Shown in pieces: positions 1,670 to 50,036 of a stretch of 64,000 nt of DNA (the stretch's first letter is position 1; the number at the start of each line of letters is the position of its first letter). A program made the position numbers and the translations under genes. The stretch lies in NCBI RefSeq assembly GCF_020271745.1, contig NZ_CP084296.1:620001-684000 (forward strand), read 5' to 3'. The notes beneath the pieces were generated by a model that was not told where the DNA came from, searched no databases, and saw only the letters and a program-made list of their open reading frames with translations. The stretch comes from Providencia alcalifaciens (GTDB lineage Bacteria > Pseudomonadota > Gammaproteobacteria > Enterobacterales > Enterobacteriaceae).

Positions 1670-1727
1670 ATATCCCTCTAATCGGTGATTTTTTCATTTC
1701 GGTACCGTTTTATTCGGGTGCAAATAA

Positions 1728-2753: not shown

Positions 2754-2754
2754 T

Positions 2755-3867: not shown

Positions 3868-4147
3868 CTGTTGCTCCCGAATTTAGCCCTGTAAAGTCCC
3901 CCACTTCATGGTCTAACTGGCTCATCGCCGTTAGCGCATCAAGGGTGGCTTGAGCTTCTTCTTCGTTAATCACACTCATCGCGAAGCCAACGTGTACCAA
4001 GACCCATTGACCTAACAGGTCTGCGGTATCCCCTTCACAAATTAGCCCAATATTCACGTCGCGTTTCACACCACAGACATCAACTTGCGCCAATTGGTGG
4101 ACATCTTCGCCCACCGCGACGATTTTGCCCGGTATTCCTAAGCACAT
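3851..4147 (-). CDS. hypC: HypC/HybG-type hydrogenase maturation chaperone
   Basis: The start is taken at 4147, giving MCLGIPGKI, because Cys2 must be N-terminal after Met removal to bind iron; the longer reading frame upstream would bury it. The ATG overlaps the last ten bases of hypB. The product has 98 residues, slightly longer than E. coli HypC (90) or HybG (82), the extra length lying at the C-terminus. The protein shuttles between HypD and the large-subunit precursor. In this operon it takes the place of hybG, and as no second HypC is in the window it probably serves HybC. Confidence 0.95.
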
Positions 4148-5244: not shown

Positions 5245-5370
5245 AATGATTACTCCATAAGTGAGTGATAAAGTTAGCTTAGTGCAACATCAGAAAAATA
5301 GGTTGATTCACCGCAAGGTCAATTCATAATTTTCGCTCTAAATCACACAAAAGGTTCTTAGATCAAAAAT

Positions 5371-5712
5371 CTATTCGATTTCTAATTCTTTGATTCGCAG
5401 ACTGTCGCCGTTCTCAACTTTAAGGTTAAAACCGTGACATTTAGGGCAAGCGGCGTCGTGAGTGTGGACATCAACACTTTCACTACAATCCCAACACCAT
5501 GCTTGAGCTGGACGATACAGGATATGCAATTGACTACCATGTGCCACGGTACCGCGGCACGCGATATCAAAACAAAAACGAAGAGCACTCTCTTCAATGC
5601 AAGAGAGTGCGCCAATTTCCAACCAAACGCCGGTCACCTTTTTCACCTGATGCTGCCTTGCTTGCTGTTCAATGATCTCGACAGCACTTTGGCATAAAGA
5701 GACTTCATGCAT
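5371..5712 (-). CDS. hypA: HypA/HybF, nickel metallochaperone
   Basis: A 113-residue protein with the essential nickel-binding N-terminus MHE (His2) and a zinc site formed by C73, C76, C89 and C92 (CWDC ... CPKC). It passes nickel to the hydrogenase large subunit together with HypB. It sits exactly where hybF lies in the E. coli hyb operon, so it could equally be called hybF. The ATG shares one base with the hybE stop codon (TAATG). Confidence 0.96.
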   Translation of the reverse strand: MHEVSLCQSAVEIIEQQARQHQVKKVTGVWLEIGALSCIEESALRFCFDIACRGTVAHGSQLHILYRPAQAWCWDCSESVDVHTHDAACPKCHGFNLKVENGDSLRIKELEIE

Positions 5713-6212
5713 TATTGGTCTCCCAGATAACGCGCGAACACAGCGCGACGTTCCGGCGATTTAGGGACATTAGGATCCGTCACAGGTAAAGAGAGCAACA
5801 TCCGCGCGCAGTCATCAGTCAGATGCTCACCCTGCGTTGCAGTTAGCTTTCTGTCTAATGGCGACATTAATGAACACGCCAAATATTGAGTTAGCCCTTC
5901 CAGTTCCCCAACGGTGTAAGTCATTTCGCCGTAAGGAAGAATCAAACCGAGTTTCTCCCCAACAACACGATGCTCCCAGTATTGATCAGGACCCGGCAGG
6001 ATGATCGCACTCAACATCCAAGGGGTGATAACCGCCCCTACCCATTGATTTTCAAATAACGAAAATGCACTGGCATAGATGCCCATCGTCGGATGCAAGA
6101 AGGACAAATCATGCATCGATTGCTGAGCAACTCGTTCAAAAGCAGCCTGAACTAACGGCTGCGGATTTTGAGAGTAACCTTGGATCTCTTTTGGCATTGA
6201 TTCATTAGGCAT
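5712..6212 (-). CDS. hybE: HybE, hydrogenase-2 assembly chaperone
   Basis: A 166-residue cytosolic protein of the HybE/HupJ family (rubredoxin-like fold without the metal cysteines). In E. coli it is a hydrogenase-2-specific chaperone that helps pair the small and large subunits before Tat export. The WVGAVITPWMLSAIILPG segment near residue 55 is typical of the family. It overlaps hybD by eight bases. ATG codons at residues 1 and 6 are both possible; the first is kept because it preserves the overlap. Confidence 0.92.
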   Translation of the reverse strand: MPNESMPKEIQGYSQNPQPLVQAAFERVAQQSMHDLSFLHPTMGIYASAFSLFENQWVGAVITPWMLSAIILPGPDQYWEHRVVGEKLGLILPYGEMTYTVGELEGLTQYLACSLMSPLDRKLTATQGEHLTDDCARMLLSLPVTDPNVPKSPERRAVFARYLGDQ

Positions 6213-6699
6213 GGAGACACTCTTCTTTTGCGATAATCTCTAACCCTTCACTGCGTAGCACTTCGATCACTTTTTGCAGTGCAGGCTCTAATGCGGCTTG
6301 CCCCGTCGCCGTTAAACCGATATTTGGTTCTAACGACTCAGGCACAATCCCCACCAGTGTCAGACGCTTTGGAAACTCATCGGTTAGGTGCAGCGCCGAT
6401 AACACATCGGAAAGCCCTAACTGATGGGGTGAGATTTTACGGGTAAACAGCGCAGGTACTTCGGCATCGCGCAGCACTAAAATGCTGCCAGGCTGCTGAC
6501 TCGACAGCACCACATCCGCAATAATCAGATGGTCACGATCCGCCATGGCGCCAATCAGCTCCATGCCTGCCGTTCCACCATCCAATACCTCAACACATTC
6601 TGGTAAGTGATAACGTTCTTCGAGTGCTTCAACAATGCGCACACCGATACCTTCATCACTCAACAAAATATTACCAACACCTAAGACTAATATACGCAT
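6205..6699 (-). CDS. hybD: HybD, hydrogenase-2 maturation endopeptidase
   Basis: A 164-residue nickel-dependent protease of the M52 family. It starts MRILVLGVGNILLSDEG, and the three nickel ligands are in place: E16, D62 and a histidine at 92 (SPHQ). It removes the C-terminal tail of HybC once nickel is inserted. Its ATG shares one base with the hybC stop (TAATG), so protease and substrate are made from coupled genes. Confidence 0.97.
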   Translation of the reverse strand: MRILVLGVGNILLSDEGIGVRIVEALEERYHLPECVEVLDGGTAGMELIGAMADRDHLIIADVVLSSQQPGSILVLRDAEVPALFTRKISPHQLGLSDVLSALHLTDEFPKRLTLVGIVPESLEPNIGLTATGQAALEPALQKVIEVLRSEGLEIIAKEECLHA

Positions 6700-8402
6700 T
6701 ACAGTACCTTCACCTTAGTCACTTCGGAACCTTCTGTATCGACGATATGCACCGCACAAGACATGCATGGGTCGAAGGAGTGGATCGTTCTGACGACTTC
6801 CAATGGTTTAGATGGGTCAGCCACCGTAGTTCCCACAAGCGCTTGCTCGTATGGGCCTGGTTCATCATTGAAATTACGAGGGCCTGAGTTCCATGTAGAT
6901 GGAACAACCGCTTGATAGTTTTCAATTTTACCGTCTTTTACCACCACCCAGTGGGATAACAGACCGCGAGGAACCTCACCAAAACCAACCCCTTTGATCA
7001 CCGTATCTTGTGGGAAGTTTGGCTTGATAAAGGTGGTGTGATCGCCTTTACCGATGTTATCTACCAGTGCTTGCCATTGAATAGACAAGGTTTCGTTTAA
7101 TACACAGCAACGAACAGTACGACCGATAATGCGACCTAATGTTGATTCTAGCTGGTCTTTGGTGATCGTGTTGCCCGTTAAGGTTTGGTATAAACCGACG
7201 ACATCATTAAAGTGTTTTTCAGTTGGTTCATGTTTCGCTGCCAGTTTGCACAGCAAGTCAGCTAATGGGCCCACTTCCACGGTTTTATCATAGAAAGTTG
7301 GTGCTTTAACCCAAGAGTATTTACCATCATCATCCCAGCCAGTGTAGTCTGGAATTGTAGTGCCTTCCCAAGGGGCTTGCGGCTCGTTATCTTTGTACCA
7401 TGCGTGTTTGCTGCTCTCTTTAATACCGTTAATCAGGTATTCATCCGTATGGCTAGTGATTGGGCGATAAGTACTGAAATCCCCATTTTCTAGATAACCA
7501 CCTGGTAGCAAGAAGCTGCCATTTTTGTTGTCCATTGGCATTTCAGGCACACACATATAATGTTTGGCACCTTTACCCATTTCTAACCATTCTGGATAAC
7601 CCGATGCGATCACTGCCGCGTCGATTTTGTACACTTGCTCGATAAAATCCCCTAAACGGTCAATAAAGGATTTCACATACATTAAGCGCTCAAGGTTAAG
7701 TACCCCAATACCATCAAGGTTGATTGGGTTAGCAACACCGCCCACCGCGAGGTTTTGAATATGCGGTGTTTTACCCCCTAGCAGTGCCACGATACGGTTA
7801 GCATCACGCTGGCATTCCAGCGCTTGCAGGTAGTGAGCCACCGCAATTAAGTTCACTTCTGGCGACAGTTTCATCGCAGGGTGGCCCCAATAGCCGTTAG
7901 CAAAAATACCTAACTGACCACTGGCGACTAAATCTTTAATTTTGTTTTGAACGCGGGTGAACTCTTCAGGGCTGTTTAATGACCATGTAGAGACCCCTTT
8001 GAGCATATTCGCCGCTTTGGTTGGGTCTGCTTGTAATGCGGATGTAATATCTACCCAATCCAGAGCTGACAGTTGATAAAAATGCACAATATGGTCTTGG
8101 ATAGTGTGCGCGGCCAAAATCATATTACGGATATATTGCGCGTTAACAGGCACTTCAAGGTTAAGTGCACTTTCAATGGTACGCACAGAAATAATTCCGT
8201 GAACCGTGGTACATACCCCACAAATACGCTGCATGATCATCCATGCATCACGGGCATCTTTCCCTTTTACGATCTCTTCCATGCCACGCCACATGGTGCC
8301 GGATGCCCACGCTTTGGTGACTTTTCCATCTTCGATTTCGCAATCAATGCGTAAGTGACCTTCGATACGAGTTACCGGGTCGATAGTTATACGTTGGCTC
8401 AT
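6699..8402 (-). CDS. hybC: HybC, [NiFe] hydrogenase-2 large subunit
   Basis: The 567-residue catalytic subunit. The nickel ligands are C61 and C64 in RICGVC, and C546 and C549 in DPCMSCAVH. The precursor extends 15 residues beyond His552, the tail that HybD cleaves. The length equals that of the E. coli protein. The mature enzyme oxidises H2 on the periplasmic side of the membrane, passing electrons through HybO and HybA to HybB and quinone. It has no signal of its own and would travel with the Tat signal of HybO. The ATGA start overlaps the hybB stop by four bases. Confidence 0.98.
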   Translation of the reverse strand: MSQRITIDPVTRIEGHLRIDCEIEDGKVTKAWASGTMWRGMEEIVKGKDARDAWMIMQRICGVCTTVHGIISVRTIESALNLEVPVNAQYIRNMILAAHTIQDHIVHFYQLSALDWVDITSALQADPTKAANMLKGVSTWSLNSPEEFTRVQNKIKDLVASGQLGIFANGYWGHPAMKLSPEVNLIAVAHYLQALECQRDANRIVALLGGKTPHIQNLAVGGVANPINLDGIGVLNLERLMYVKSFIDRLGDFIEQVYKIDAAVIASGYPEWLEMGKGAKHYMCVPEMPMDNKNGSFLLPGGYLENGDFSTYRPITSHTDEYLINGIKESSKHAWYKDNEPQAPWEGTTIPDYTGWDDDGKYSWVKAPTFYDKTVEVGPLADLLCKLAAKHEPTEKHFNDVVGLYQTLTGNTITKDQLESTLGRIIGRTVRCCVLNETLSIQWQALVDNIGKGDHTTFIKPNFPQDTVIKGVGFGEVPRGLLSHWVVVKDGKIENYQAVVPSTWNSGPRNFNDEPGPYEQALVGTTVADPSKPLEVVRTIHSFDPCMSCAVHIVDTEGSEVTKVKVL

Positions 8403-12368: not shown

Positions 12369-14651
12369 TCAGTTATTTTTCTTCAATATTGCGGCAGCGA
12401 TCGCAACTTGCCCCAATGCAAGTCCACCATCTCCCATCGGTAATTGACGGGCATGCAACACCTCAAGAGGCTGTAAATTCTCTATTAGCAAATGACGCAA
12501 TAATTGGTTATGCAGAACACCACCAGACAGCACCACTTGTTGAATGCCATGCTGTTTCGCTTGTTGCAAGGCTAAATCCGCAAATCCTTGCGCCAAAGCT
12601 TGATGAAAAGCATGGGCTCGTTCGGCTCTCGGTGCATCATAAGCCAACCACTCATGCCAAAAGGTGCTTAAATCCAATTGATTATCCACCACCGGCATTG
12701 TGACAGGATGCTGCTGAGCTGAACTTTGCAATGCTAACGCTTCTAACTGGCAAGCCCCCTCACCTTCCCAACTGGTTTGCTCAGGACAGATCCTTAATGC
12801 TGCTGCGATAGCATCAAATAATCGTCCTGTCGACGAAGCGGTTGGGCAGTTAAGCCCCCGGCTAATCGCTTTTTGTAATAGTGGATAAGCAAAAGGAGCG
12901 AGTACCGAAGCAATCGGATTTGTTTGCCAATCAGGAACAAATTTTTCTAGATGAGCCAATAAGTTACGCCACGGTTGGCGAGATGCCAAATCGCCCCCCG
13001 GCATAGCAACTGGTGGTAATCCACCAAGGTGTTGGCTAGAGGCGTAATCGACGAGTAAGCACTCACCGCCCCACAATCGGTTATCATCGCCAAAACCGAG
13101 ACCATCCAGTGCCAAACCAATCACTTTTTCATCACCTAACGGGATGCCGTGTTCCGCCATCGCCGCCGCAATATGGGCATGATGATGCTGAACGTGGATC
13201 ATCGGAATATTAAGCTGCTCACTGAATGTTTTGCCGTAACGGTGGCTAACATAATTGGGGTGCATATCCCCCACTAAATATTCCGGTTTGAATCGATAGA
13301 TGGATTCAAATAGTGTAATAGCCTGCTGATATTGTTGATAAATATCGACATCGTCTAAATCACCTAAATGCTGGCTCATCACCGCACTTTTATCTCTAAG
13401 TAAACAAAAGGTATTTTTTAAATCCGCACCTAACGCCAAAATGGACGGTGAGCTTTCAAAGCCCGCCGGAAGGTCAATGGCATCCGGCACATAACCTCTA
13501 GCTCGGCGTAACATTTCTGCTTTTCCGGCATGGTAGCGCACTAAAGAGTCATCAGCCCGTTGAACAATATCGCGATTATGCATCAGCCAAATGTCTGCAA
13601 TGTTCGCTAAATCGGTAAAAGCCGCTTGCTCCGTTAATACGGGTGGTTTGCCAGATGCATTTCCAGAGGTCATCACTAATGGCTTATTCACCTGCGCCAT
13701 CAATAAGTGTTGCAGTGGGTTGGAAGGTAGCATCACCCCCACCTCCCGCAAATGTGGCGCAATATTTTCACTTAATACGCTATTTTTCCATCTGTGAATA
13801 AGGACAATCGGGGCGGCTGCACTTTCAAGTAATGCACTTAGACCTTCAGTGACATCGACTCCTTGGTTTTTTAGCCAGTCTAGGGATGGGATCATCACCG
13901 CCAGAGGTTTGCTGGGACGGTGTTTGCGTTGACGCAGTTGTTCGACTGCATGGAAATGAGTGGCATCACAGGCAAGATGAAAACCGCCGAGCCCTTTAAT
14001 AGCAGCGATTTTGCCATTCAATAAATCAGTCGCCGTTTGTTCTAAGGCGTGATGGTGAATCGCTAGAATCTTGCCATTCTTGTCACACAGCTGGATTTCC
14101 GGACCACAGGTTGCACAAGCATTTGGCTGTGCATGGAAACGTCTGTCTGCCGGGTTTTCATATTCTTGCTGACATTTAGGGCATAAAGGAAATGCCGCCA
14201 TTGAGGTATTTGGTCGGTCATAGGGCATTTGACGAATGATAGTAAAGCGGGGGCCGCAATGGGTGCAGTTTGCAAATGGGTAATGATAGCGACGATTCGT
14301 AGGGTCAAACAGTTCGTCACGGCAGGCTTTGCAGGTTGCAGCATCAGGGATAACTTGAGTATCCATGCGCCCAGCGCCACTATGGCGAATAGTGAATTTT
14401 TTTGGTAACTCATCCCATTGAAAAGGCTGGGGTTGTACAGATTCAATATGCGCAAGCGGCGGGCAGTGTTGATATAAAAGTTGGGTAAATAAAGGGATAT
14501 CCGCTGTCTCTAATAGGCGCACTAGTACACCTTCGCCATCATTACAGACATCGCCGTTCAAGGCACATTGATGGGCGAGTTGCCAGACATATGGCCGAAA
14601 TCCAACCCCTTGAACCTTTCCTTTGATACGTAACTGTATGCCGTTTTTCAC
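12369..14651 (-). CDS. hypF: HypF, carbamoyltransferase of hydrogenase maturation
   Basis: A 760-residue multidomain enzyme that uses carbamoyl phosphate and ATP to carbamoylate the HypE cysteine. In order: an acylphosphatase domain ([16 protein letters not shown] near residue 10), two zinc fingers ([23 protein letters not shown] and [23 protein letters not shown]), a YrdC-like domain from about residue 200, and a Kae1-like domain with the metal motif HHHAH. The start is GTG with AGAGGG seven bases before it. It is separated from hybO by 619 bases, same strand. In E. coli hypF is not in the hyb operon, so this places the whole pathway in one locus. Confidence 0.97.
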
Positions 14652-14960
14652 TCGAATACCCTCTGGTGATTGAGACTCTATTCTCGCGCTTCTACGTATA
14701 AATAACCTGAGTTCAGATCAAAAAATAAAGCGTTTTTAAGTTTTCTCATGAAATATGAGCTCTAAGCTTTATTTTAAAAAAAACATATTATTCATTTTTA
14801 AATAATCAATTAAAAGATAAAAATAAATTAAACATTATTCCATCAATAAAAACAAATGTACCCTATAATTAAAAATCAAAAATAAAATTTTAAAAAACAA
14901 AATCATCCCAGACAAATAAATAACATCGCCATTTGATTATCATTAATATAAATATAGACA
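14652..14960. other. AT-rich divergent intergenic region hypF / inverse autotransporter
   Basis: 309 bases of strongly AT-biased sequence with promoters implied on both sides. On the hypF side a TTGAT half-site (14717-14721 on the minus strand) resembles half of an FNR box, but its partner matches only two of five bases, so FNR control is not claimed. No reading frame or hairpin of note. Confidence 0.6.
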
Positions 14961-17900
14961 ATGAAAATGAACGCAATGAATAAAAAAACCACATCATTAA
15001 TTTTACTTCAAATCTATTTTTTTATTTTCTGGAGTTTTTTTCCTATTGGTAATGCAAATGAAAACAAACAAGAACATTGGCTTATATTAGAAAACACATC
15101 AGAGCAATCTATTAATGACCTTCCTGAACTGCCAATGGAATCAATAAATAAGCAAGATATCAATCAGAAATTTATTGCCGAAAAAGGAAGCCAGCTAGGT
15201 ACAATTCTGAGCAGTGAAAATAGCACCAATATTGCCCGAAATATGTTAGGAAACGCCTTAATACAGAAGATTAACCGTGATATTAATAATTGGTTTAATC
15301 AGGTTGCTTATGCCCGCATTCAATTTAACACTGATAAAAACGGTAATGCCGCTATCCTCTATCCCTTATATGATAAAGATAGCCATATTGTCTTCACCCA
15401 ATTGGGATTACAAATTAATGAAGATCGTACAACAACGAATATAGGATTCGGTTATCGTCAGCTTAATATTGATTGGATGTGGGGGGTTAACTCGTTTTAT
15501 GATTCAACATCTTCAAATAGACGTTTAGGTTTAGGTGCTGAAGCATCCGCTGATTTTATTAAACTATCAAGCAACGGTTATTTTCGCTTGAGTGATTGGC
15601 ATGGTTCTAAATTAGACAATTGGCGTGATTTTGATGAGCGCCCAGCTAATGGTTTTGATGTTCGATTCGAAGGATTTCTTCCAGATTATCCTCAATTTGG
15701 GGCAAATTTAAAATACGAGCATTATTATGGAAAGAACGTAAATATAAACAATGGTTTATATTTACGAGACTTAAAAAATAATCCAAGTCTTTATAGTGTT
15801 GGCGTTTCTTATACACCAATACCGCTTGTAACGATGAGATTAAATCAGTCCGTAGGCAGCTCCAGTGATACATCCGCCATGCTCCAAATTAATTATCGTT
15901 TTGATCTTCCACTGAATCGCCAATTATCTGCTGACTCAGTCAAAAGTATGCGTTCTCTTACAGGATTACGTTACGACTTTGTCGACCGAAACTACGACAT
16001 CGTCATGCAATATAAGAAGCAAGAATTGCTTACTATTTCATTACCTAATGAATTAGAGGTGCAATCAAAACAACGGATCAATCTAACCGCAACAATTATA
16101 AAGTCTAAATATGGCGTCAAAGACATTCAATGGTCAGCCCCTGAGCTGATTGCTGATGGAGGAAGCTTTATTAAAACCTCCGTAAACAGTATCGAAATTG
16201 TTTTACCTCCCATTCAAAACAACCCTAAAATCTATACGCTAACGGCTATTGCAATCGATAATAATGGGAATAAATCGAATACCGCGACAACCCGTTTAAA
16301 TGTAAAACCGATGTCAGGAATGATTTCTATTTTTACCGTCTTTCCTCAAGGCTCTGTCACAGCCAATGATTCAGATAACTATGAAGCAACTGTGACAGTC
16401 ACAGATACAGCCGGAAAAGCGCTCACAAATACCAATGTCGAATTTACGTTATCAGGTTTCTCGCCATTATCCGCATTTACTTTATCTGGCAATAATATTT
16501 CCAGTGCTTCTCCGCTCACATTGCCAACGGACAGTAAAGGGCAAATTATTATCAATATTCGGGGACAAAAAGCCCAACAAGGATTATTGATTGCTAAATT
16601 AGAAGATGGCTATCAATCCAGCAAGCCTCTCCAATTTATCGCTGATAGTTCCACCGCCCAGATCATGCCATCTGATATTGTCGTTATTGAAGATAATGCC
16701 GTCGCCAATAACAAAGCGACTAACCGCATTTCTGTACACATCACAGATAAATTTGGAAATCCATTAGAAAATCAATTAATTAGTGTATCCGCAAATAATG
16801 GCGCAACAGTGGGTAACATTACCCCTACCGATGCAAATGGCGATATGATTTTCTCTTTAACCAGTTTTAACGCGGGTAATAGTGAAATCACAATAACATT
16901 TAATGGCAGTCGCCATACCGTCAACGTGATGTTTATGCCCGATAAGAGCACGGCGCAAATTGATAGTGCCAATATGATTTTGGTGAGGAATAACGCGACG
17001 GCTAATGGTATTGATACAAATAGAATTAAAGTTATCGTTACCGATGCCCATAATAACCCGCTTCCAGGTCAAGTGATTACAGTAACGGCAGAAAATGGCG
17101 CGACGGTAAGCGCAATCTCACCAACCAATAGTCAGGGAGAAACAGAGTTTACGCTCACAAGTCTCAAAGCGGCCCAATATCAAGTAACCGCTGAAATTAA
17201 TGGCAGTACTCAATCCCTAAACGTGACATTTGTTGGGGATAACAACTCTGCGAAAATTGATAAAAATGACATGGTAATCACCAAAAATAACGCTAAAGCC
17301 GATGGTGTTGATACCGATCGCGTCAAGGTTATCGTAACGGATAAAAATGGCAATCCACTTGCAGGTCAAATCATCACAGTGAGTACCGATACGGGCGTGA
17401 TTTTAGGGACTATTTCGCCAACTAATACTGCGGGGGAAACTGAATTCTCCATCACAAGCACCGAAGCTAAGCAATACAAAATAACGGCAGAGATCAACGG
17501 CAGCTCACAATCTGTTTCAGTTGATTTTATTGCAGATACCAGTACAGCCCAATTAGATAAAAGCGCGATTACTGTCGTCAAAAATGATGCTAAAGCCGAT
17601 AAAATCGAAATTAATCAAATAAAAGTCAAAATCATCGATGCCAATAATAACCCTATAAAAGGTCAAAAAGTCACTGTGACTGCGGATCCCCATATTAGCA
17701 TTGGTCCAATTCCAGAAACCGATATTAATGGTGAAGCCATTATTTCCTTAACCAGTAGGCTGCCGGGACCCAGTGTAATTACCCTGTCGATTAATAATAG
17801 TACCCAAAATGTCACCGTCACATTTACCAGTGCTATTGACCCGAGCAAATCAACTCTCACGTTAGATAAAACACGTATCGTCAATTCATCGGGTGCAACA

Positions 17901-40817: not shown

Positions 40818-42755
40818 GTGGCTTTATTCATTTTGCAGCGACACAATCAAATTTTCTCTCGGATACTCAATGAGGTTGTCCCTCAAGATGAATTAGCAAA
40901 ACAATTCTCTATTTCCACCCGTACTATTCGTTCAGACATCAATGAAATCAACGAATTAATTAAAGATCATAGCGCCCATATTGTGTATGAACGCGGGCGG
41001 GGGTATCGATTAAAAATCGAAAATGATGAGGTTTTTTCTGCATTTACTAAGCTTAATGATAAAAACAACCAAATCCCACGCACCAGCAAAGAGCGTATTG
41101 ATGCCCTGTTGCTCAAACTCTTGATGTTATCCCTACCCGTCAAGCTCGATGATATTGCCGAAGAGTGGTTTGTCAGCCGCAGTACCATTCAGCAAGATAT
41201 GGGAGCCGTTCGGGAGCATCTACATCGCTATCAAGTGCAATTGGAAAGTATTCCCCATCAAGGGATCCGTTTAAATGGTAGCGAGTGGGCTATTCGTGCT
41301 TGTATGACCGAAGCACTCTGGCGGCAGTTTAGCGAGCAAATCACCCCCGACCTCGCCACATTCACTCCGGAAAGTCTGGATAATCTCGATTTAACTTACA
41401 TCGATAAAGTGGTTCATAACAGTTTGAATCGCTTTGATATTCGTATCAGCAATGAAGGTCATCTTTATCTTGTATTTAACTGCGCCGTTACCATTTTACG
41501 TATTACCCGCGGCCATGAACTCAATGTCAGCGTCAACAACAAAGAGTTAGAAGAAATCATTACTCAAGCCTGCGATGAAATTTCTAAAGGGCTAATTTAC
41601 TTTCTTGGTAATGATTTATCTCCAGCCGAATTGAGCTTTTTGCACGACCAAATCATCGCACAGCGTATCAGTAACCAGCATGCGTCAACACAAAAGCATA
41701 ATCATCACAATGAGTTATCTGAATACATTTTAAATTATATCAACGAGTTGTATAACTATGATTTGCGCAATGATGAAAAGCTAAAGAAAGATCTGAATAC
41801 CCATCTTTCTGCTTTAATGACTCGCCTTCAATACCATATTTCCACCCCAAACCCACTGCTTTCAGACATCAAGCAGTATTATCCGTTTGCTTACGATGTC
41901 ACGCTAAGCGCCTTAACCAGCGCCAGTAAGCAGCTACTTCCACATCCTATTAATGAAGATGAACTGGGTTACTTAGCTGTGCACATTGGCGTTAGTCTTG
42001 AACGAAATTATGGGGCAGGCTCCGCACGCCAGACGGAAGTGTTAGTGGTCACTGATGCGGGGAACTCCACCTTTCGCGTAGTGGAATCCAAAATTATGCG
42101 CGAATTTCCGCAGCTCAAATTTAGCCGAGGGTTAACACTACAAGAGTATGAATCGTTGGATGAAGTCGCAGAAGACTTTGTGATCACCACCGTACGGATC
42201 TCTGAAAAGAATAAACCGGTGATTAAAATTGCGCCCTTTCCAACCCCCTACCAGCTCGAACAAGTGGGTCGCTTAGCGATGGTGGATCAGACCCGTCCTT
42301 ATATTATTGAACGCTTCTTTGATGAACGTTTCTTTATGGTTATCAATGAAAAAATTAGCCAAGAGACGCTGTTCAAAACCGTATGCCAAAAGCTGCAACT
42401 AGAGGGCTATGTCACCACTGATTTTTATCCGTCACTGCAAGAGCGAGAATCCATTGTCTCGACATTACTGGGCGAAGGGATCGCCCTTCCTCACTCTTTG
42501 GGGTTACTTGCAAATAAAACCATCGTGACAACTATCCTTGCACCGCAAGGTATCGAGTGGAACAAAGAAACCAAAGAGAACGCCTATGTGATTTTCTTAT
42601 TGGCAATCAGCAAAACTGACTATGAAGAAGCCATGGCAATTTATGATTTATTTGTCACCTTTGTGAAAGAGAAAACCACCCGCCGCCTGGTGAATGTCAA
42701 AAATTTCAATGAGTTCCAAGCAATCGCTAAAGATAGTCTCGCGCGAATTTTATAG
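40818..42755 (+). CDS. PRD-containing PTS-type transcriptional regulator (BglG/MtlR class)
   Basis: A 645-residue regulator. It opens with DNA-binding helix-turn-helix motifs (QDELAKQFSISTRTIRSDINEIN near residues 22-44, and VKLDDIAEEWFVSRSTIQQDMGAVREHL near 100). Two PRD domains follow (NEGHLYLVFN near 215 and LGYLAVHIGVSLERN near 390), then a GatB-like EIIB domain from about 405 in which the phospho-cysteine loop reads VTDAGNST, without cysteine. A PTS EIIA domain from about 498 has its active histidine at H559 (ALPHS). The start is GTG after AAGGGG. It most likely activates the operon at 43261, its activity set by PTS phosphorylation of the PRD and EIIA histidines. Confidence 0.92.
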   Translation: MALFILQRHNQIFSRILNEVVPQDELAKQFSISTRTIRSDINEINELIKDHSAHIVYERGRGYRLKIENDEVFSAFTKLNDKNNQIPRTSKERIDALLLKLLMLSLPVKLDDIAEEWFVSRSTIQQDMGAVREHLHRYQVQLESIPHQGIRLNGSEWAIRACMTEALWRQFSEQITPDLATFTPESLDNLDLTYIDKVVHNSLNRFDIRISNEGHLYLVFNCAVTILRITRGHELNVSVNNKELEEIITQACDEISKGLIYFLGNDLSPAELSFLHDQIIAQRISNQHASTQKHNHHNELSEYILNYINELYNYDLRNDEKLKKDLNTHLSALMTRLQYHISTPNPLLSDIKQYYPFAYDVTLSALTSASKQLLPHPINEDELGYLAVHIGVSLERNYGAGSARQTEVLVVTDAGNSTFRVVESKIMREFPQLKFSRGLTLQEYESLDEVAEDFVITTVRISEKNKPVIKIAPFPTPYQLEQVGRLAMVDQTRPYIIERFFDERFFMVINEKISQETLFKTVCQKLQLEGYVTTDFYPSLQERESIVSTLLGEGIALPHSLGLLANKTIVTTILAPQGIEWNKETKENAYVIFLLAISKTDYEEAMAIYDLFVTFVKEKTTRRLVNVKNFNEFQAIAKDSLARIL

Positions 42756-43260: not shown

Positions 43261-43599
43261 ATGAATGAATCAGTTGTAGTTTTCAAAATGTTAGAAGACG
43301 ACCTTGATATCCATCAGGTCACACAAGAACTGCTAGCAGTGATTACTGACTGGCTCAAACTGGAGGGTTGCTACACCACGGATGTACAGCAACAAATGCT
43401 GGAGTCTCATCTACGTGCCATGGTCGCTCGAGCCAAAACCGGTGAAGCCTTACCGGAAGTGGATATCAGCCTGTTCGATGAAATTTCGAGCCATTCCATT
43501 GCATTAGCGCAACGCGTTGTCGATACCTTGCCAGGGCTTGCGCCAGAAGAGGCTTACTTGCTCTCAGTTCACTTTGAAGTTGCCCGTTCTAATGATTAA
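43261..43599 (+). CDS. Small stand-alone PRD domain protein
   Basis: 112 residues forming a single PTS regulation domain without DNA-binding part. Candidate phospho-histidines are in ESHLRAMVARA (near residue 53) and LLSVHFEVARS (near 105), as in full PRDs. Similar one-domain PRD proteins accompany this same gene set in other bacteria (families named, as I recall, after EF_08xx/AHA_39xx loci). It could titrate or relay phosphoryl groups for the larger regulator. No good ribosome site precedes the ATG; an internal ATG at 43288 is an alternative start. Confidence 0.8.
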   Translation: MNESVVVFKMLEDDLDIHQVTQELLAVITDWLKLEGCYTTDVQQQMLESHLRAMVARAKTGEALPEVDISLFDEISSHSIALAQRVVDTLPGLAPEEAYLLSVHFEVARSND

Positions 43600-43643
43600 T
43601 TTTTAGTACCTTATTTTTAGCATTCGGTCTTGGAGAATATTTT

Positions 43644-44009
43644 ATGAAACAGATAGTTATTGTTATCGGCGATCGTTTAGGTAAAGGGCAAAAAGTGGCT
43701 GCGGGTGTTGAATCTGCCGGCGGAAAAGCCATCGTTGTTCCCGGTGTCGCTGCTGACATGAAACTGGGGGATGTGATGAACCAAGAACAAGCTGATCTTG
43801 GCATTTCATTCTGTGGTAGCGGTGGTGCAGGCGCCATTACAGCTCAAACCAAATATGGCTACAAAGCGCGTTATGGGATGCGTTCGATTGAAGAGGGAGA
43901 AACCGCCATTGCTGAAGGTTGCAATGTTTTAGGTTTCGGTTTTATGGACAAGGAAGAGTTAGGCGAGCGCTTAGTTAAAGCTTTTAATAAAAAATACGGC
44001 AACGCTTAA
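43644..44009 (+). CDS. SFCGS-family glycine-rich protein (DUF2620-like)
   Basis: 121 residues, cytosolic. The signature SFCGSGGAGAITAQTKYGYKAR gives the family its name; the cysteine is C57. The N-terminus IVIVIGDRLGKGQKVAAGVESAGG looks like an alternating alpha/beta fold. In the family its role is unknown, but it is always next to the two membrane proteins found here. The cysteine in a glycine-rich loop recalls PTS EIIB active sites, which is my inference only. Strong GGAG ribosome site. Its stop overlaps the next start (TAATG). Confidence 0.88.
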   Translation: MKQIVIVIGDRLGKGQKVAAGVESAGGKAIVVPGVAADMKLGDVMNQEQADLGISFCGSGGAGAITAQTKYGYKARYGMRSIEEGETAIAEGCNVLGFGFMDKEELGERLVKAFNKKYGNA

Positions 44010-44305
44010 TGAAAAAATCTATCGAAACGACCGTACGGGTGACAGGGCAAGGCGACACAAAGCAAAAAGCGATTGCTGACGCCTTAAATTCGATTCAAAA
44101 AACCGTACTTAAGAACAGCACCGACATCATTCTGCGGATAGAACCCAAGGATGTTGAGGTTGTTAGTGCTCACTCTCATTCGCGGACAGAAAAGTTTCTC
44201 TTTCTCTTTTTGCCACGTAAACGTGAACATTTTCGAGTTGTTCTCGACGTTTCGCTGGATGTCACCTTACTTTCTGTCAACGAAATTCCATTTACAGAAC
44301 AATAA
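44009..44305 (+). CDS. DUF4312 family protein
   Basis: 98 residues starting KKSIETTVRVTGQGDTKQKAIADALNSIQKTVLK. Probably cytosolic, with an alpha/beta pattern and a basic FLFLFLPRKREHF segment in the middle. The family is recognised only through its constant company with SFCGS, DUF4311 and DUF4310 proteins. Presumed accessory or coupling subunit of the transporter; no biochemical role known to me. Start and preceding stop share one base. Confidence 0.85.
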   Translation: MKKSIETTVRVTGQGDTKQKAIADALNSIQKTVLKNSTDIILRIEPKDVEVVSAHSHSRTEKFLFLFLPRKREHFRVVLDVSLDVTLLSVNEIPFTEQ

Positions 44306-44331
44306 AAGCAATCAGGTCTGGAGTAAATTCC

Positions 44332-45123
44332 ATGAGTGAAACTGCATCTTTCTTAGAAATATTGGGCATGTCCCTTATTATCGGCGGTCTCTGCGGCTTT
44401 GGTTTAGGCGCAGGGGCGGCACGTATGTTCCACGCGCCAACCATTCAAGGTATGGGAGCATTCCGTACCCTTGGTGAGTTAAACGCGTGTGAGGGCGACC
44501 CTGCATCACACTTCTCATTTGGCTTAGGATTCTTCTTCAACGCATGGGCATCATCGGTCGCTGCGGGTGCGTTCACCCAAGACGTTGATCACCGTATCAT
44601 TCCTAACTGGGGTGCCGCCGCTCTATTAACTAAAAACCGCAGTGTGGCAGATACCCTGCATAACCCGAAAAAAATGGCGATAGCCTGTGCCATTATAGGG
44701 GCATTGGTGGTCGCCTTCTTAAATACCACGGCGTCCGCAGTACCAGCCGCGCTACAAACCACCGCGATCAACGTGCTGGTTCCTGCGGCTAACTTACTGG
44801 TTAACACCGTGATGCCTGTCATTTTCTGGCTAGCTGCGATGGATGCAGGTCGTCGTTCCGGTTTCTGGGCAACCTTATTTGGTGGTTGCGCACAATTAAT
44901 CATGGGTAACGCTATCCCAGGTTTAGTGTTAGGGATCTTGATTGGTAAAGGCGTGGATGACAATGGCTGGAACCGTATCACTCGTACCATGATGATCACC
45001 GTTGTTCTGCTATTCGTTCTCAGTGGCTTCTTCCGCGAATTTGACCTGAAGATGATCACCTCTTTCAACTTAGACAAACCACTGTGGCTTGAATATGTCC
45101 ACGGACTGCTGAGCGGGAAATAA
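44332..45123 (+). CDS. DUF4311 family membrane protein (putative transporter subunit)
   Basis: 263 residues with about six to seven hydrophobic helices (SLIIGGLCGFGLGAGAARMF, MAIACAIIGALVVAFLNTTASAVPAAL, AINVLVPAANLLVNTVMPVIFWLAAM, LIMGNAIPGLVLGILIGKG, MITVVLLFVLSGFF). Between helices lies a conserved-looking cytosolic or re-entrant part (GMGAFRTLGELNACEGDPASHFSFGLGFFFNAWASSV). With DUF4310 it should form the membrane channel of the system. The family has no proven substrate. Confidence 0.87.
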   Translation: MSETASFLEILGMSLIIGGLCGFGLGAGAARMFHAPTIQGMGAFRTLGELNACEGDPASHFSFGLGFFFNAWASSVAAGAFTQDVDHRIIPNWGAAALLTKNRSVADTLHNPKKMAIACAIIGALVVAFLNTTASAVPAALQTTAINVLVPAANLLVNTVMPVIFWLAAMDAGRRSGFWATLFGGCAQLIMGNAIPGLVLGILIGKGVDDNGWNRITRTMMITVVLLFVLSGFFREFDLKMITSFNLDKPLWLEYVHGLLSGK

Positions 45124-45125
45124 TC

Positions 45126-45776
45126 ATGACAACTGAAATCAATAAACAAGACTTTTGGTATGCAGAATGGTCTTTCCCTATCTTTGTTGGGCTGCTATCA
45201 GCGGGGATCTTCGCAGGTACCCATATGTACGTCGTGTACGGGTTCGGCGCATTTAACGAAGTGGCTTTCGTCGCCATGTTACGCGCTGGGTTAGATACGG
45301 GGGTTTACGGTGCTGTCGCCGCCTTCGGAGCAAGCTTCCTGTTTGCGCGGATTATCGAAGGGTCATTAGTGGGGATTTTGGATATCGGTGGTGCACTACA
45401 AACCGGTATTGGCTTAGGAGTTCCCGCACTATTTTTAGCCGCAGGCTGGGATATTTTAGTCACCAACTTCTGGATCTCCCTGATCACTGGTTTATTCCTT
45501 GGTGTGCTTATCGGCTTAATTATCGTGTTCGCCCGTAAATTTACTATTGCGCAAGCTAACTCCACATTCGGCGCAGACGTAATGATGGGTGCAGGTAACA
45601 CATCCGGTCGTTTCTTGGGTCCATTGATTATCCTTGCTGCAATGGCCGCGTCTATTCCGATTGGTATCGGCGCACTGATTGGCTCACTGATTTTCTATGT
45701 ATGGCAAAAACCCGTCGCCGGGGGCGCTATCTTAGGTGCGATGTTGTTTGGGTATTTCTTCCCACTCGCCGCTTAA
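45126..45776 (+). CDS. DUF4310 family membrane protein (putative transporter subunit)
   Basis: 216 residues, about six helices, rich in glycine and alanine (FPIFVGLLSAGIFAGTHMYVVYGFGAF, GLDTGVYGAVAAFGASFLFARI, WISLITGLFLGVLIGLIIVFARKF, FLGPLIILAAMAASIPIGIGALIGSLIFYVW). It starts two bases after the DUF4311 stop, so the two are probably made in equal amounts and form a complex. A segment ADVMMGAGNTSGRFLGP near residue 155 stands out as conserved-looking and polar. Function as a permease is inferred. Confidence 0.87.
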   Translation: MTTEINKQDFWYAEWSFPIFVGLLSAGIFAGTHMYVVYGFGAFNEVAFVAMLRAGLDTGVYGAVAAFGASFLFARIIEGSLVGILDIGGALQTGIGLGVPALFLAAGWDILVTNFWISLITGLFLGVLIGLIIVFARKFTIAQANSTFGADVMMGAGNTSGRFLGPLIILAAMAASIPIGIGALIGSLIFYVWQKPVAGGAILGAMLFGYFFPLAA

Positions 45777-45828
45777 TTAGCATTCCTCCCCCCATACCAA
45801 TTGGGGGGAGGTAACAAAGAGAGACGTT

Positions 45829-46968
45829 ATGTACACCTTAATAATCAAACAGGGCAAGCGTATCGATGGTTCAATTATCGATATTCTAATCAAAGACGGA
45901 AAAATCGAAGCGGCGGGTCCTGAGCTTTCCCACAATCAGCAAGCTGAAAAAATCATTGATCTTGAAGGAAAGCTTTACGTCAGCGCTGGATGGATTGATT
46001 CTCACGCCCACTGTTTTGCTGAGTCGCCGATTTACTTCGATGAGCCTGATCTCGCCGGTGCCGCTGGCGGTGTCACCTCACTGGTTGATGCAGGCAGTGT
46101 GGGTGCTGATGATATTGACAGGTTTTATCGGCTAACCACTCAATCCAAAACGAATGTCTTCTCACTGCTGAATATTTCACGCATTGGCATTATTGCTCAG
46201 AATGAGCTGTCCAATATGGACAATATCGATGATGCGAGTTTCCAAGCCGCACTTGAGCGCCATCCCGGCTTTGTGGTTGGCATGAAAGCGCGAATGAGTA
46301 AAAGTGTAGTTGGCGAGAATGGTATTGCGCCTTTGGTTAAAGCCAAAGAAATGCAGAAAAAACACCATCTTCCATTAATGGTGCACATTGGGAATAACCC
46401 ACCCAACATTGATGAAGTCGCCGACTTACTCACCCGTGGGGACATCATTACCCACTGTTTTAATGGCAAACCGAATAAAATTTTAGGGGATGATGGATAC
46501 CTAAAACCGTCTATTGCCCGCGCCCTCGCCCGTGGCGTGATCCTCGATGTGGGTCACGGCGGTGAAAGCTTTAGCTTTAAAGTCGCAGAGCAAGCCATGC
46601 GAATTGGCACCTATCCAGACATTATCAGCTCAGACATCTATCACCGTAACCGTGTGAATGGTCCCGTTTATAGCCTCGCCTTTGTAATGACGAAATTCCT
46701 GTGTATGGGCTTTAGCGCCGAACAAATTTTGCGCTGTGTCACTGAGAAAGCCGCAGATTTACTGTCGCTTCCCGCTAAAGGTTATTTAAGACCGGGCTTT
46801 GATGCTGACATTACGTTATTTGACCTCAAAGAAGAGACCACCGAGCTGACGGATGCCGACGGCGAGCATCGCATCGGTACCCATCGTTTTGTTCCTGTTG
46901 CTGCCATCGTTGGTGGAAAGCACATTATTCCTGCACAAGGCGAATCTGAACATGCAATCAATCTATGA
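45829..46968 (+). CDS. Amidohydrolase/deacetylase-family metallohydrolase
   Basis: A 379-residue TIM-barrel amidohydrolase (dihydroorotase-like group, cog3964). Metal ligands can be read: HAH in DSHAHCF (near residue 60), the bridging lysine in GMKARMSKS (near 155), His in LMVHIGNN and DIITHCFNG, and Asp in ISSDIYHRN (near 268). In the family the best known members cleave N-acyl or ester bonds rather than dihydroorotate. In this operon it may remove an acyl group from an amino-sugar acid before the ammonia-lyase acts. That step is inferred from context. Confidence 0.9.
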   Translation: MYTLIIKQGKRIDGSIIDILIKDGKIEAAGPELSHNQQAEKIIDLEGKLYVSAGWIDSHAHCFAESPIYFDEPDLAGAAGGVTSLVDAGSVGADDIDRFYRLTTQSKTNVFSLLNISRIGIIAQNELSNMDNIDDASFQAALERHPGFVVGMKARMSKSVVGENGIAPLVKAKEMQKKHHLPLMVHIGNNPPNIDEVADLLTRGDIITHCFNGKPNKILGDDGYLKPSIARALARGVILDVGHGGESFSFKVAEQAMRIGTYPDIISSDIYHRNRVNGPVYSLAFVMTKFLCMGFSAEQILRCVTEKAADLLSLPAKGYLRPGFDADITLFDLKEETTELTDADGEHRIGTHRFVPVAAIVGGKHIIPAQGESEHAINL

Positions 46969-48064
46969 AAAATATCAGTTAAAACACGTGATTAATGCCT
47001 CCGGTCGTATGACCATTTTAGGCGTTTCAACCCCAACACCTGAAGTGGTCGAGCGCGTAACATATGGGCTGAACCATTATTTTGAAATTAAAGACTTGGT
47101 GAACAAAACCGGGGAGTACATCGCTCAACTGCTCAATGTTGACGCTGCGGTTGTGGTTTCCTGCGCCTCAGCAGGTATTGCTCAAGCGGTAGCAGCGGTG
47201 ATTGTGCAAGATGATGAGGATTTGCTGCTTAACTTGCATTCCTCCAGCAAATCCGTTCCTCGTGAAATTATTTTACCCAAAGGGCATAACGTGAACTTTG
47301 GCGCTCCCGTGGACACCATGGTCACGTTAGGTGGCGGAAAAGTGGTTGAAGCGGGTTTTGCGAATGAATGTAGCGCCGCGCAGCTAGCGGCTAAAATCTC
47401 CCCACAAACCGCGGCCATTTTGTATATCAAATCCCACCATACCGTACAAAAGAGCATGTTAACTGTGGCGGAAGCCGCCCAAGTCGCTCATGCCCACCAG
47501 CTTCCCTTGATAGTGGATGCAGCAGCAGAAGAAGATTTAACTGCCTATTACCAAGCGGGTGGCGACCTTGTGATTTACAGTGGAGCCAAAGCGATTGAAG
47601 GGCCGACCAGCGGCTTGGTTGTCGGTAAAAAACAGTATGTTGAATGGGTAAAACGCCAATCTCAAGGCATTGGCCGTGCGATGAAAGTCGGTAAAGAAGG
47701 CATTTTAGGTTTAACACTGGCTATCGAACAGTACCTTACCGCCACCAAAGAAACCGGGGCACAGATGGTCAGCCGTATGGAGAAATTCCTTAAAGATTTA
47801 AATGCGATAGCCGGTATTTCAGCCCGTATTGTTTGGGATGCCGCTGGGCGTGATATCGCCAGAGCTGAGATCAGTTTCGATGAAAAAGCGATTGGCAAAA
47901 CCACCTACCAAATAATGGATGAGCTGAAACAAGGCAATACCGCGATTTATTTTCGTGAGTACAAAGCCAATGAAGGAAAGGTTGAAGCTGATATTCGCAG
48001 CGTCAGCACCGAGCAACTTGACGTCATTTCGCAGCAAATTCGTACATTAGTAGAAGGAATTTAA
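46952..48064 (+). CDS. DgaE-family PLP-dependent ammonia-lyase
   Basis: The start is set at 46952 (MQSIYEKYQLKHVINASGRMTILGVS, 370 residues), overlapping the amidohydrolase by 17 bases. The longer upstream frame is a shadow of that gene. It is a SelA-like fold-type I PLP enzyme; the Schiff-base lysine is K213 in IYSGAKAIEGPTSG, preceded by the LIVDAAAEEDL cofactor motif. The Salmonella homologue DgaE turns D-glucosaminate 6-phosphate into 2-keto-3-deoxygluconate 6-phosphate and ammonia. The next gene encodes the matching aldolase. Confidence 0.9.
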   Translation: MQSIYEKYQLKHVINASGRMTILGVSTPTPEVVERVTYGLNHYFEIKDLVNKTGEYIAQLLNVDAAVVVSCASAGIAQAVAAVIVQDDEDLLLNLHSSSKSVPREIILPKGHNVNFGAPVDTMVTLGGGKVVEAGFANECSAAQLAAKISPQTAAILYIKSHHTVQKSMLTVAEAAQVAHAHQLPLIVDAAAEEDLTAYYQAGGDLVIYSGAKAIEGPTSGLVVGKKQYVEWVKRQSQGIGRAMKVGKEGILGLTLAIEQYLTATKETGAQMVSRMEKFLKDLNAIAGISARIVWDAAGRDIARAEISFDEKAIGKTTYQIMDELKQGNTAIYFREYKANEGKVEADIRSVSTEQLDVISQQIRTLVEGI

Positions 48065-48065
48065 C

Positions 48066-48806
48066 ATGAAGTTGTCACCAAATTTTTATCATGATCGTGT
48101 GTGTCTGAACGTCCTAGCTGGGAGCCATCAAAACGCAAAAGAGATTTATGCCGCGGCGGAGAGTTTTGTGGTGGTTGGGGTGTTATCCAAAAATTATCCT
48201 GATCTTGAAAGTGCCATTGCGGATATGAAGGTGTACGCCAAAGAAGTGGATAATGCGTTGTCTGTGGGTTTAGGTGCTGGCGACCCTAAGCAGTCCACCA
48301 TGGTGTCTCTGATTTCGAAAGAAGTTCAACCACAGCATGTGAATCAAGTATTCACGGGTGCACCGATTAGCCGCGCGCTACTGGGTCAGAATGAAACGTT
48401 TGTGAATGCGTTAATTTCCCCAACAGGCACCGTGGGTATGGTGAAAATTTCAACGGGTCCATTAAGCGCTCAAGCACCCGATGGTATCGTGCCGATTGAA
48501 ACCGCCATTATGATGCTCAAAGATATGGGCGCAGATTCTGTGAAGTTCTTTAATATGCAGGGTTTGAAGTACATTGAAGAATATAAAGCTATCGCAGAAG
48601 CTTGCGCGAAGTTTGATTTTTCTTTAGAGCCAACAGGCGGTATTGATTTAGAAAATTTCGCCGAGATTTTGCAAATCGCCCTCGACGCTGGCGTGAAGAA
48701 AATCATCCCACATATTTACAGTTCTATTATCGATAAAGCCACTGGAAATACCCGTCCAGAAGATGTCCGTCAGTTGCTAAACATGGTTAAAAAAGCGGTA
48801 AATTGA
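48066..48806 (+). CDS. DgaF-family KDGP-type aldolase
   Basis: A 246-residue aldolase of the DgaF family (2-dehydro-3-deoxy-6-phosphogluconate cleavage to pyruvate and glyceraldehyde 3-phosphate). The Schiff-base lysine is probably in DSVKFFNMQGLKYIEEY (near residue 160), followed by FSLEPTGGIDLENF, which matches the phosphate-binding glycine region of KDPG aldolases. It starts one base after the dgaE-like stop, with AAGGA in place. Last gene of the operon; a terminator follows. Confidence 0.9.
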   Translation: MKLSPNFYHDRVCLNVLAGSHQNAKEIYAAAESFVVVGVLSKNYPDLESAIADMKVYAKEVDNALSVGLGAGDPKQSTMVSLISKEVQPQHVNQVFTGAPISRALLGQNETFVNALISPTGTVGMVKISTGPLSAQAPDGIVPIETAIMMLKDMGADSVKFFNMQGLKYIEEYKAIAEACAKFDFSLEPTGGIDLENFAEILQIALDAGVKKIIPHIYSSIIDKATGNTRPEDVRQLLNMVKKAVN

Positions 48807-48965: not shown

Positions 48966-50036
48966 TCAATGACCTATTTCTCTGGCATTCGGTATGATGT
49001 GAAACCAATAGTTATCAGGCACTGGGCTATCCCAAACGCCTAGGTAAGCCGCAACCGCGATAGTGGCGAATAAAATACCTAGGGTCAAAATGGCCATCAC
49101 CATTCCCGATAAAGGGATTTGGCGTTTTTTAGTCGGCGCTTGTAATGAGAAAGCCAATGTCGACGCCACTGGACAAGATTCAACACACGTCATGCATCCC
49201 GTACATTCTACCGTTCTGACGTTGATTAATTGATCAACTGGAATGCGTGACGGGCAATTTTTAGCGCATTTTCCGCAATCTATGCAGCTTTCGACATTAC
49301 GGCGAATTTTAACTGGCGAGAATAGAGAGAATATCCCAAGTAATGCGCCATAAGGGCAGAGATAACGACACCACGCGTTACGAATAAACAGGCTAGCGAC
49401 GACAAGAACAGACACTGTGATGAGTGAGGCGCTACTAATATAACGAAAGAAATCCAACATTTTGACATCGATGATGATCCCATAAGGCGACATCATAAAG
49501 TATTGGATCATTTGCGCAGGCATGGAGAGCGAGATATAGAGGAAGAAGGCCAATAGTAGGTATTTTAATCCTCTTAAGGGGATATCGAGCCATTTAGGTA
49601 CGTTGATTTGAAAACGAAACAGTTTCTGCCCTATTTTCCCGATGTATTCCGATATTGTGCCTATCGGGCACAGCCATGAGCAAAAGGATTTTTTCAGTAA
49701 TAAACTGATGATAATAAAGGAAGCCAAGAGAAACATTGCTGCCGCATGGATGGGAGGCAGTCCCCCTGTTTCAATGGTGTATTTTAAGTTCATTAACCCC
49801 GCAATAGGCAGCCAGCCTTCGATACCTCCCGGACGCGGAAGATAGAGTGTCGCACCACCCGTTTCGTAATAGCGCACCCAGTAATAGAAGGTAATGCCAA
49901 TATAAATGTTGATCGCCAAAAGCGTGATTTGCACGACTTTCCGCCATGTCGAGGCGTTGCGCCAATCATTCCAAGGGAGTTTTCCACCAACTGTGCCAGG
50001 ACGACGAGGGCATCGTACTGAGGGTTTCTTTGCCAT
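48966..50036 (-). CDS. yccM: YccM, polyferredoxin-like membrane electron-transfer protein
   Basis: A 356-residue NapH/NosR-like protein, very close to E. coli YccM (357). It opens with RCPRRPGTVGGKLPWNDWRN. It has about five or six helices with two membrane CxxxCP motifs (FCSWLCPIGT and WCRYLCPYGA), then two [4Fe-4S] ferredoxin sites (CIDCGKCAKNCPSRIPV, CTGCMTCVESCPVAS), and a last helix. It probably passes electrons from quinol to an unidentified acceptor. In E. coli yccM lies near the torCAD region, so its place here beside rnpB differs. Confidence 0.95.
   Translation of the reverse strand: MAKKPSVRCPRRPGTVGGKLPWNDWRNASTWRKVVQITLLAINIYIGITFYYWVRYYETGGATLYLPRPGGIEGWLPIAGLMNLKYTIETGGLPPIHAAAMFLLASFIIISLLLKKSFCSWLCPIGTISEYIGKIGQKLFRFQINVPKWLDIPLRGLKYLLLAFFLYISLSMPAQMIQYFMMSPYGIIIDVKMLDFFRYISSASLITVSVLVVASLFIRNAWCRYLCPYGALLGIFSLFSPVKIRRNVESCIDCGKCAKNCPSRIPVDQLINVRTVECTGCMTCVESCPVASTLAFSLQAPTKKRQIPLSGMVMAILTLGILFATIAVAAYLGVWDSPVPDNYWFHIIPNAREIGH

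Follow-up and report, generated by a model that had tools for sequence, protein, structure and literature searches.

The 64-kb window analysed here, from a Providencia alcalifaciens genome of 4.2 Mb whose best relatives are Providencia, carries at 43261..48806 an operon of eight genes that is a real, conserved and unstudied system. It likely takes up and degrades an acylated amino-sugar acid, and the phosphotransferase system (PTS) is likely involved, at least in its regulation. Phosphorylation of the substrate by this operon, driven by the PTS, is the leading mechanism, which we hold at somewhat less than even confidence.

The eight genes (Table 1) are intact open reading frames (ORFs) on the plus strand, in the order PRD protein, SFCGS protein, DUF4312, DUF4311, DUF4310, amidohydrolase, DgaE and DgaF. 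Each scores above the cut-off of its curated family, and neighbours are either separated by gaps of at most 52 bases or overlap. A first-pass annotation of the window had placed an eight-gene operon here and had found in it no sugar kinase and no classical EIIB, EIIC or ABC gene; the intact reading frames and curated family matches bear out the former, and family-model scans of the eight proteins, which returned no kinase, EIIB, EIIC or ABC family, bear out the latter. The same scans found no ABC ATPase subunit among the proteins of the window. The start of DgaE was set where the match of its relatives begins (the mechanical ORF runs from 46853), and scans for promoters and terminators gave counts near the shuffled mean (16 vs 14.9 and 13 vs 9.0, respectively). 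The coordinates of the first-pass annotation omit the adjoining upstream regulator, which is part of the system, since 80 of the 84 loci that we compared have a gene related to it.

These loci came from a scan of a species collection with DUF4311, of which the best 80 of at least 499 confirmed stretches were used, and from a plasmid collection, which added four records (two Bartonella, one Klebsiella, one Enterococcus faecalis). All 80 genome-scan loci are proteobacterial by title, and distant phyla enter only via the four plasmid-collection records. Genes were counted by BLAST to the window genes, and a lactonase by BLAST to a Klebsiella gene; for conservation counts, duplicates and sequences shorter than 85% of the reference length were removed. 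DUF4311, DUF4310, the amidohydrolase and DgaE are each present in 84/84 loci. The PRD and SFCGS proteins are present in 83, the missing locus (L108) being truncated by a contig end; DUF4312 is found in 81, DgaF in 77 and the lactonase in 24. The distribution of the family is patchy, DUF4310 occurring in 1 of 274 genomes of the class, the window's own, and DUF4311 in 49 of 119 near relatives.

Many of the extra ORFs in or beside the operon are antisense ORFs filling the slot where two core genes overlap. Eighteen of the others, larger ones from the genome-scan loci, were run through Pfam. They include a pirin, a RibD-like protein, PmbA, cytochrome b562, EF-P, acetyltransferases and an arginine deiminase, and four are without a family; none is a kinase, an EII component or an ABC ATPase. 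Because none of these was seen among the extra ORFs tested, DUF4311 and DUF4310 are the only candidate path seen in those loci. In E. faecalis, the cluster also comes with an EIIC, a small hydrophobic protein and MupG, and a PfkB kinase directly follows it; BLAST found relatives of this kinase and EIIC in 0 of the 80 genome-scan loci. The E. faecalis record (L035) is a 747-kb 'plasmid' that has chromosomal-looking murF, D-Ala ligase and udk along with the operon, and its dgaF is split between frames. In a record titled Klebsiella sp. (L043), the extra ORFs form a separate haem-uptake cluster with one haem-type binding protein by Pfam; its DUF4311 is 98% identical to the Providencia protein, which may reflect a recent transfer or a mislabelled genome. 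In L077, the place between DgaF and the regulator that the lactonase takes in sister Yersinia loci is occupied by a 440-aa ORF without a Pfam family (14600-15922, minus strand).

The amidohydrolase matches PDB entries 8wzy (468.8 bits) and 2ics (348.5 bits), and its H59, H61, K153, H186, H209 and D269, each conserved in 83/83, form what we take to be the two-metal amidohydrolase ligand pattern. It is probably the N-deacylase of the substrate. DgaE (K212 and H162 in 83/83, H161 in 81/83) lies above the cut-off of the broader DgaE family (584.5 vs 385.3 bits) and below that of the D-glucosaminate-6-phosphate lyase model (377.7 vs 600 bits), so its substrate may differ from that of the exact enzyme. 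Its nearest solved relative acts on a 6-phosphate; His163 of that D-glucosaminate-6-phosphate lyase was studied as the proton donor in PMC9529869. DgaF passes both of its models (393.3 vs 300 bits for TIGR03581, 350.7 vs 26.7 for Pfam), matches PDB entry 3m0z at E 1.6e-118 and is the sole KDGP_aldolase match in its genome. Six Xenorhabdus genomes and one draft (L050-L053, L056, L057, L058) keep the amidohydrolase and DgaE and show no DgaF-family gene at the locus or elsewhere in the genome, which fits cleavage of the DgaE product by another aldolase, probably Eda. The lactonase would fit an aldonic acid derived from its lactone. The Salmonella dga system, whose pathway is described in PMC9529869, likewise encodes enzymes of the DgaE and DgaF families together in an operon. 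There they accompany DgaABCD, a mannose-family PTS, whereas here no such PTS is present, four uncharacterised proteins and the PRD protein are found instead, and an amidohydrolase is added.

Several observations point to a link between the operon and the PTS. Both conserved PRD histidines are present in the stand-alone PRD protein, in which H50, R57 and H104 are each invariant (82/82), with a score below the Pfam PRD cut-off (13.1 vs 23 bits). Its stretches HLRAMVAR and YLLSVHFEVA resemble the stretches around the histidines of the regulator's second PRD (HLSALMTR and YLAVHIGVS), and its profile match to the regulator falls on the first PRD. We regard this protein as a candidate HPr-dependent phosphocarrier or sensor. 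The regulator itself combines HTH, Mga, PRD and EIIA_2 domains, as do PTS-controlled regulators of what we take to be the LicR/MtlR type. Among 75 regulators longer than 560 aa, the window's included (those of 560 aa or less were dropped), H329 and H389 are found in 75/75 and H559 in 74/75, with one gap. Its EIIA_2 domain carries an invariant His; the operon itself encodes no EIIA domain. It differs from the LicR/MtlR type in that a stand-alone PRD protein is encoded downstream and in that the Cys of a stretch which we read as EIIB-like (position 412, C in 54/75) is replaced by Thr in 21/75, including the window protein. In L064, the regulator ORF lies in two frames near a contig end (14929-15607), around a low-complexity Asn-His/Pro repeat.

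On two Bartonella plasmids, the operon, the regulator and a fusion of HPr with enzyme I (EI) stand in a row and in one direction (L034 272-10062, NZ_CP104895.1; L037 7630-17420, NZ_CP104889.1). The proteins that they have in common show 98.8 to 100% identity, and the two plasmids thus represent one event. According to PMC2405797, Bartonella species had ptsH and lacked ptsI, and a figure legend there lists multiphosphoryl proteins for both B. henselae and B. quintana; for B. quintana, PMC11983613 gives ptsH, fruB and manX as present and IIC/IID as absent. Should the bat strains be alike in this, the plasmid would supplement an incomplete PTS on the chromosome that lacks a permease. The transfer of a PTS-sensing regulator and an accompanying HPr-EI to such a host suggests that the transporter of the operon itself draws on phosphoryl groups. 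The same plasmid operon, BglG-type regulator and HPr-EI adjoin the type VI secretion genes tssA and tssM, and in L037 the rep/RelE/ParA block (121-3067) has an inverted copy at 4139-7085.

An EI domain was found in 11 of 12 operon-bearing genomes or records and HPr in 4 of the 5 examined, the exception being an incomplete draft, G757. The earlier proposal of an uncharacterised uptake system that stands beside phospho-amino-sugar-acid enzymes is supported, and the PRD histidines, the PTS-type regulator and the Bartonella HPr-EI point independently to a PTS link. Weak matches of HPr size also occur on the minus strand of five loci, L113 among them.

The first-pass annotation had likened the SFCGS protein to EIIB because of a cysteine, C57. 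The cysteine is where it was said to be and is invariant (79/79), as are D10 and S59, but the likeness to EIIB found no support. Pfam listed no EIIB family for 39 SFCGS proteins, the EIIB-containing E. coli proteins UlaB, ManX and GatB reached only E 0.13 to 0.34 (as single sequences, a weaker test), and RpiB ranked first of 19 targets in profile comparison (E 2e-5 over 78 columns, hhalign probability 77%), followed by DUF2620, the family of YhfU (E 0.018). The EIIB reading was therefore dropped for an RpiB-like one. In the profile alignment, over the C57 region only, C57 falls on the catalytic Cys of RpiB, and the RpiB counterparts of D10, C57 and S59 are presumably all catalytic. Pfam gave weak matches to LacAB_rpiB in 31/39 SFCGS proteins (best 0.0012) and to DUF2620 in 12/39, which call for caution, as DUF1685 is matched by 22/39 at the same threshold, surely by chance. 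Judged by its sequence, SFCGS is a distant member of the RpiB/LacAB superfamily. It shares with these isomerases the region around the catalytic Cys and differs from them in scoring below the curated cut-offs (16.1 vs 24.7 bits for Pfam, 20.5 vs 168.2 for TIGR02133) and in lying within a transport-like operon; a profile search of the PDB gave it no match under E 0.8. The SFCGS alignment had 67 rows, from which L115 and all rows of at least 145 aa were excluded. What looked in L115 like a fusion of SFCGS with DUF4312 was rejected, since the reading is frameshifted and garbled in its middle; it had produced a spurious 99% profile match.

DUF4311 has five hydrophobic segments over threshold and DUF4310 has six. 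No EIIC or EIID family was among those that Pfam listed for 34 DUF4311 and 40 DUF4310 proteins, their profiles reached E 0.044 to 0.5 against ManY, ManZ, UlaA and one EIIC (single sequences), and profile searches of the PDB gave no match under E 0.8. Relatives of known function were thus not found by Pfam, PDB and profile comparisons for either membrane protein, nor by Pfam and profile comparison for DUF4312. DUF2232 is weakly matched by 33/34 DUF4311 proteins (best 1.9e-4; in the window protein over residues 145-205), perhaps through distant membrane kinship or else by chance. Kinship of DUF4311 with YhfT of E. coli, which a signal in E. coli had suggested, was considered and rejected: two such weak signals in relatives fall in a protein that we take to be DjlA, and a motif that the two proteins seemed by eye to share did not stand out from shuffles, 39/100 and 27/100 of which equal DUF4311 against the N half of YhfT. 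DUF4310 against the C half of YhfT fared no better (35/100 and 16/100 shuffles reach the observed value).

YhfT belongs to an E. coli cluster (yhfSTU-php-yhfWXYZ) that parallels the operon in placing a stand-alone PRD protein (YhfY) and a small protein with an invariant Cys (YhfU, DUF2620) beside a large membrane protein (YhfT). H48 and R55 of YhfY are conserved in 14/14 and C52 of YhfU in 15/15. The PRD protein of the window matches the YhfY profile at E 1.9e-6; SFCGS matches that of YhfU weakly (E 0.006 to 0.018), and YhfU in turn matches RpiB weakly (E 1.6e-5, but 0.015 with the RpiB set reduced to 8 rows). The cluster differs in having other enzymes, another regulator and one membrane protein rather than two, and BLAST found no DUF4312 relative in it. 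Its regulator YhfZ has only HTH_41 and YhfZ_C and no PRD, so a stand-alone PRD protein does not have to be the partner of a PRD regulator. We took 16 regions, chosen by YhfT or DUF2620. Among the 11 chosen by YhfT, YhfU is found in 10, YhfY and YhfX in 9 each, Php in 8, YhfW in 7 and YhfS in 5. All four regions chosen by DUF2620 alone above its cut-off contain YhfT, and the sixteenth, a sub-cut-off choice, has none of these yhf genes. In L146 (7859-9565), a YhfU-YhfT pair stands without other yhf genes beside large ORFs of 442, 479, 1003 and 781 aa.

From these parts, we propose the following mechanism. The substrate would be an N-acyl-2-amino-2-deoxy-aldonate, for example N-acetyl-D-glucosaminate, taken up through a membrane path that DUF4311 and DUF4310 may form, with SFCGS (RpiB-like, C57), DUF4312 and the PRD protein (H50, H104) as putative cytosolic partners. 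HPr would phosphorylate the PRD protein. The phosphoryl group would pass, by a route that we can only suppose, to the substrate, which would appear inside the cell as its 6-phosphate; the enzyme families suggest that a 6-phosphate is needed. Going by its family, the amidohydrolase would then take off the acyl group, and DgaE would remove ammonia to give 2-keto-3-deoxy-6-phosphogluconate (KDPG), which DgaF, replaced by Eda in genomes that lack it, would split into pyruvate and glyceraldehyde 3-phosphate. The upstream regulator would sense the state of the PTS. In its most specific form, the proposal makes the operon a new class of phosphotransferase permease, in which DUF4311/DUF4310 are a new EIIC, an RpiB-fold SFCGS is a phosphoryl carrier on C57 or presents the sugar, the PRD protein is a phosphocarrier that receives its phosphoryl group from HPr, and the yhf cluster is a second branch. 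This form is, in our estimate, unlikely as it stands.

A number of points weigh against phosphorylation by the operon. No part of it matched a known EIIA, EIIB or EIIC by Pfam or profile comparison, and SFCGS looks like the relative of an isomerase rather than a phosphocarrier. In E. faecalis, the cluster is accompanied by a true EIIC and a PfkB sugar kinase, and the regulator there is without an EIIA_2 match. The HPr-EI of the Bartonella plasmids might serve only the regulator; a ptsH and a FruB-type protein are already present in B. henselae and B. quintana. The draft G757 (L064) has the operon and shows neither EI nor HPr, and the EI domain is absent from 9 of the 32 genomes of its order, G757 included, so a real loss is possible there; its assembly is incomplete, however, with 22 tRNA matches covering 14 of the 20 amino acids. 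The yhf parallel is also imperfect: YhfY has Asn at position 108 in 14/14, by our reading the place where H104 would lie, and profiles and shuffles detect no sequence relation of DUF4311 or DUF4310 to YhfT, so that the membrane parts of the two systems could be merely analogous.

There are three other possible explanations of these observations. DUF4311/4310 could be a secondary transporter under HPr control exerted through the PRD protein and the regulator, with a kinase encoded elsewhere making the 6-phosphate. In its favour, HPr is known to act on PRD domains in regulation, PTS domains are present in the regulator, and a PfkB-family kinase directly follows the E. faecalis cluster. However, this kinase has no relative in the 80 genome-scan loci and no kinase is among the 18 extra ORFs (the rest of the genomes were not searched), and every host, Bartonella too, would have to supply a kinase from elsewhere; we consider this explanation unlikely, though it deserves to be taken seriously. 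It is a good deal less probable that no phosphorylation step exists, the substrate entering already phosphorylated or DgaE and DgaF acting on a phosphate-free one. Such a pathway would agree with the lack of a kinase and of any known EII and with the score of DgaE below the D-glucosaminate-6-phosphate lyase cut-off, but DgaF passes the phosphogluconate aldolase model, and the seven genomes with DgaE and without a DgaF-family gene would fit replacement by Eda acting on KDPG.

Finally, SFCGS could be an isomerase of the pathway and the PRD protein a second regulator, leaving transport to DUF4312, DUF4311 and DUF4310 only. The relation of SFCGS to RpiB and the invariance of D10, C57 and S59 speak for this, but a sugar-acid pathway does not need an aldose-ketose isomerase. 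In addition, RpiB-like YhfU accompanies YhfT more regularly than YhfS and YhfW do (although YhfX is as frequent as the PRD protein YhfY), and the pair in L146 stands without other yhf genes. We find this explanation the most improbable of those weighed here. Phosphorylation of the substrate by the operon, driven by the PTS, remains our tentative preference.

Table 1. Genes of the operon and the adjoining regulator in the 64-kb window
Feature	Position	Strand	Details
Transcription regulator	40818..42755	+	645 aa; Pfam HTH, Mga, PRD (two matches), EIIA_2
Stand-alone PRD protein (EF_0829 family)	43261..43599	+	TIGR03582 4.9e-33
SFCGS protein	43644..44009	+	TIGR03577 3.7e-65; RPI_actino 3.4e-4
DUF4312 protein, small, soluble-looking	44009..44305	+	TIGR03578 1.6e-36
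DUF4311 membrane protein, candidate transport subunit	44332..45123	+	TIGR03580 5.9e-144
DUF4310 membrane protein, candidate transport subunit	45126..45776	+	TIGR03579 5.7e-109
Amidohydrolase/deacetylase	45829..46968	+	TIGR03583 5e-155
DgaE-family pyridoxal phosphate (PLP) ammonia-lyase	46955..48064	+	TIGR01437 6.9e-176
DgaF-family KDGP aldolase	48066..48806	+	TIGR03581 8.3e-119; Pfam KDGP_aldolase 4.5e-105

Facing the end of the operon is a gene for a NapH/NosR-like ferredoxin-type membrane protein (48966-50036, minus strand).

The set is already catalogued at NCBI as the nameless EF_0829-EF_0839 families (TIGR03577-TIGR03583). It is the same set, and its members pass the cut-offs; the NCBIfam models are of the hypothetical equivalog type and list no function for the transport-like members. 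Literature searches gave no paper on the system among the matches listed; PMC7396535 names dgaE and dgaF among duplicated genes of E. faecalis, and the amidohydrolases of cog3964 have been the subject of earlier work. The system is common, with at least 499 related stretches in the species collection, and a parallel core stands unexplained in E. coli K-12. If it is coupled to the PTS, it would be a new class of permease built from unrelated parts, in which a PRD protein is a component of transport and not only a regulator; if it is not, it would still be a new carrier for amino-sugar acids.

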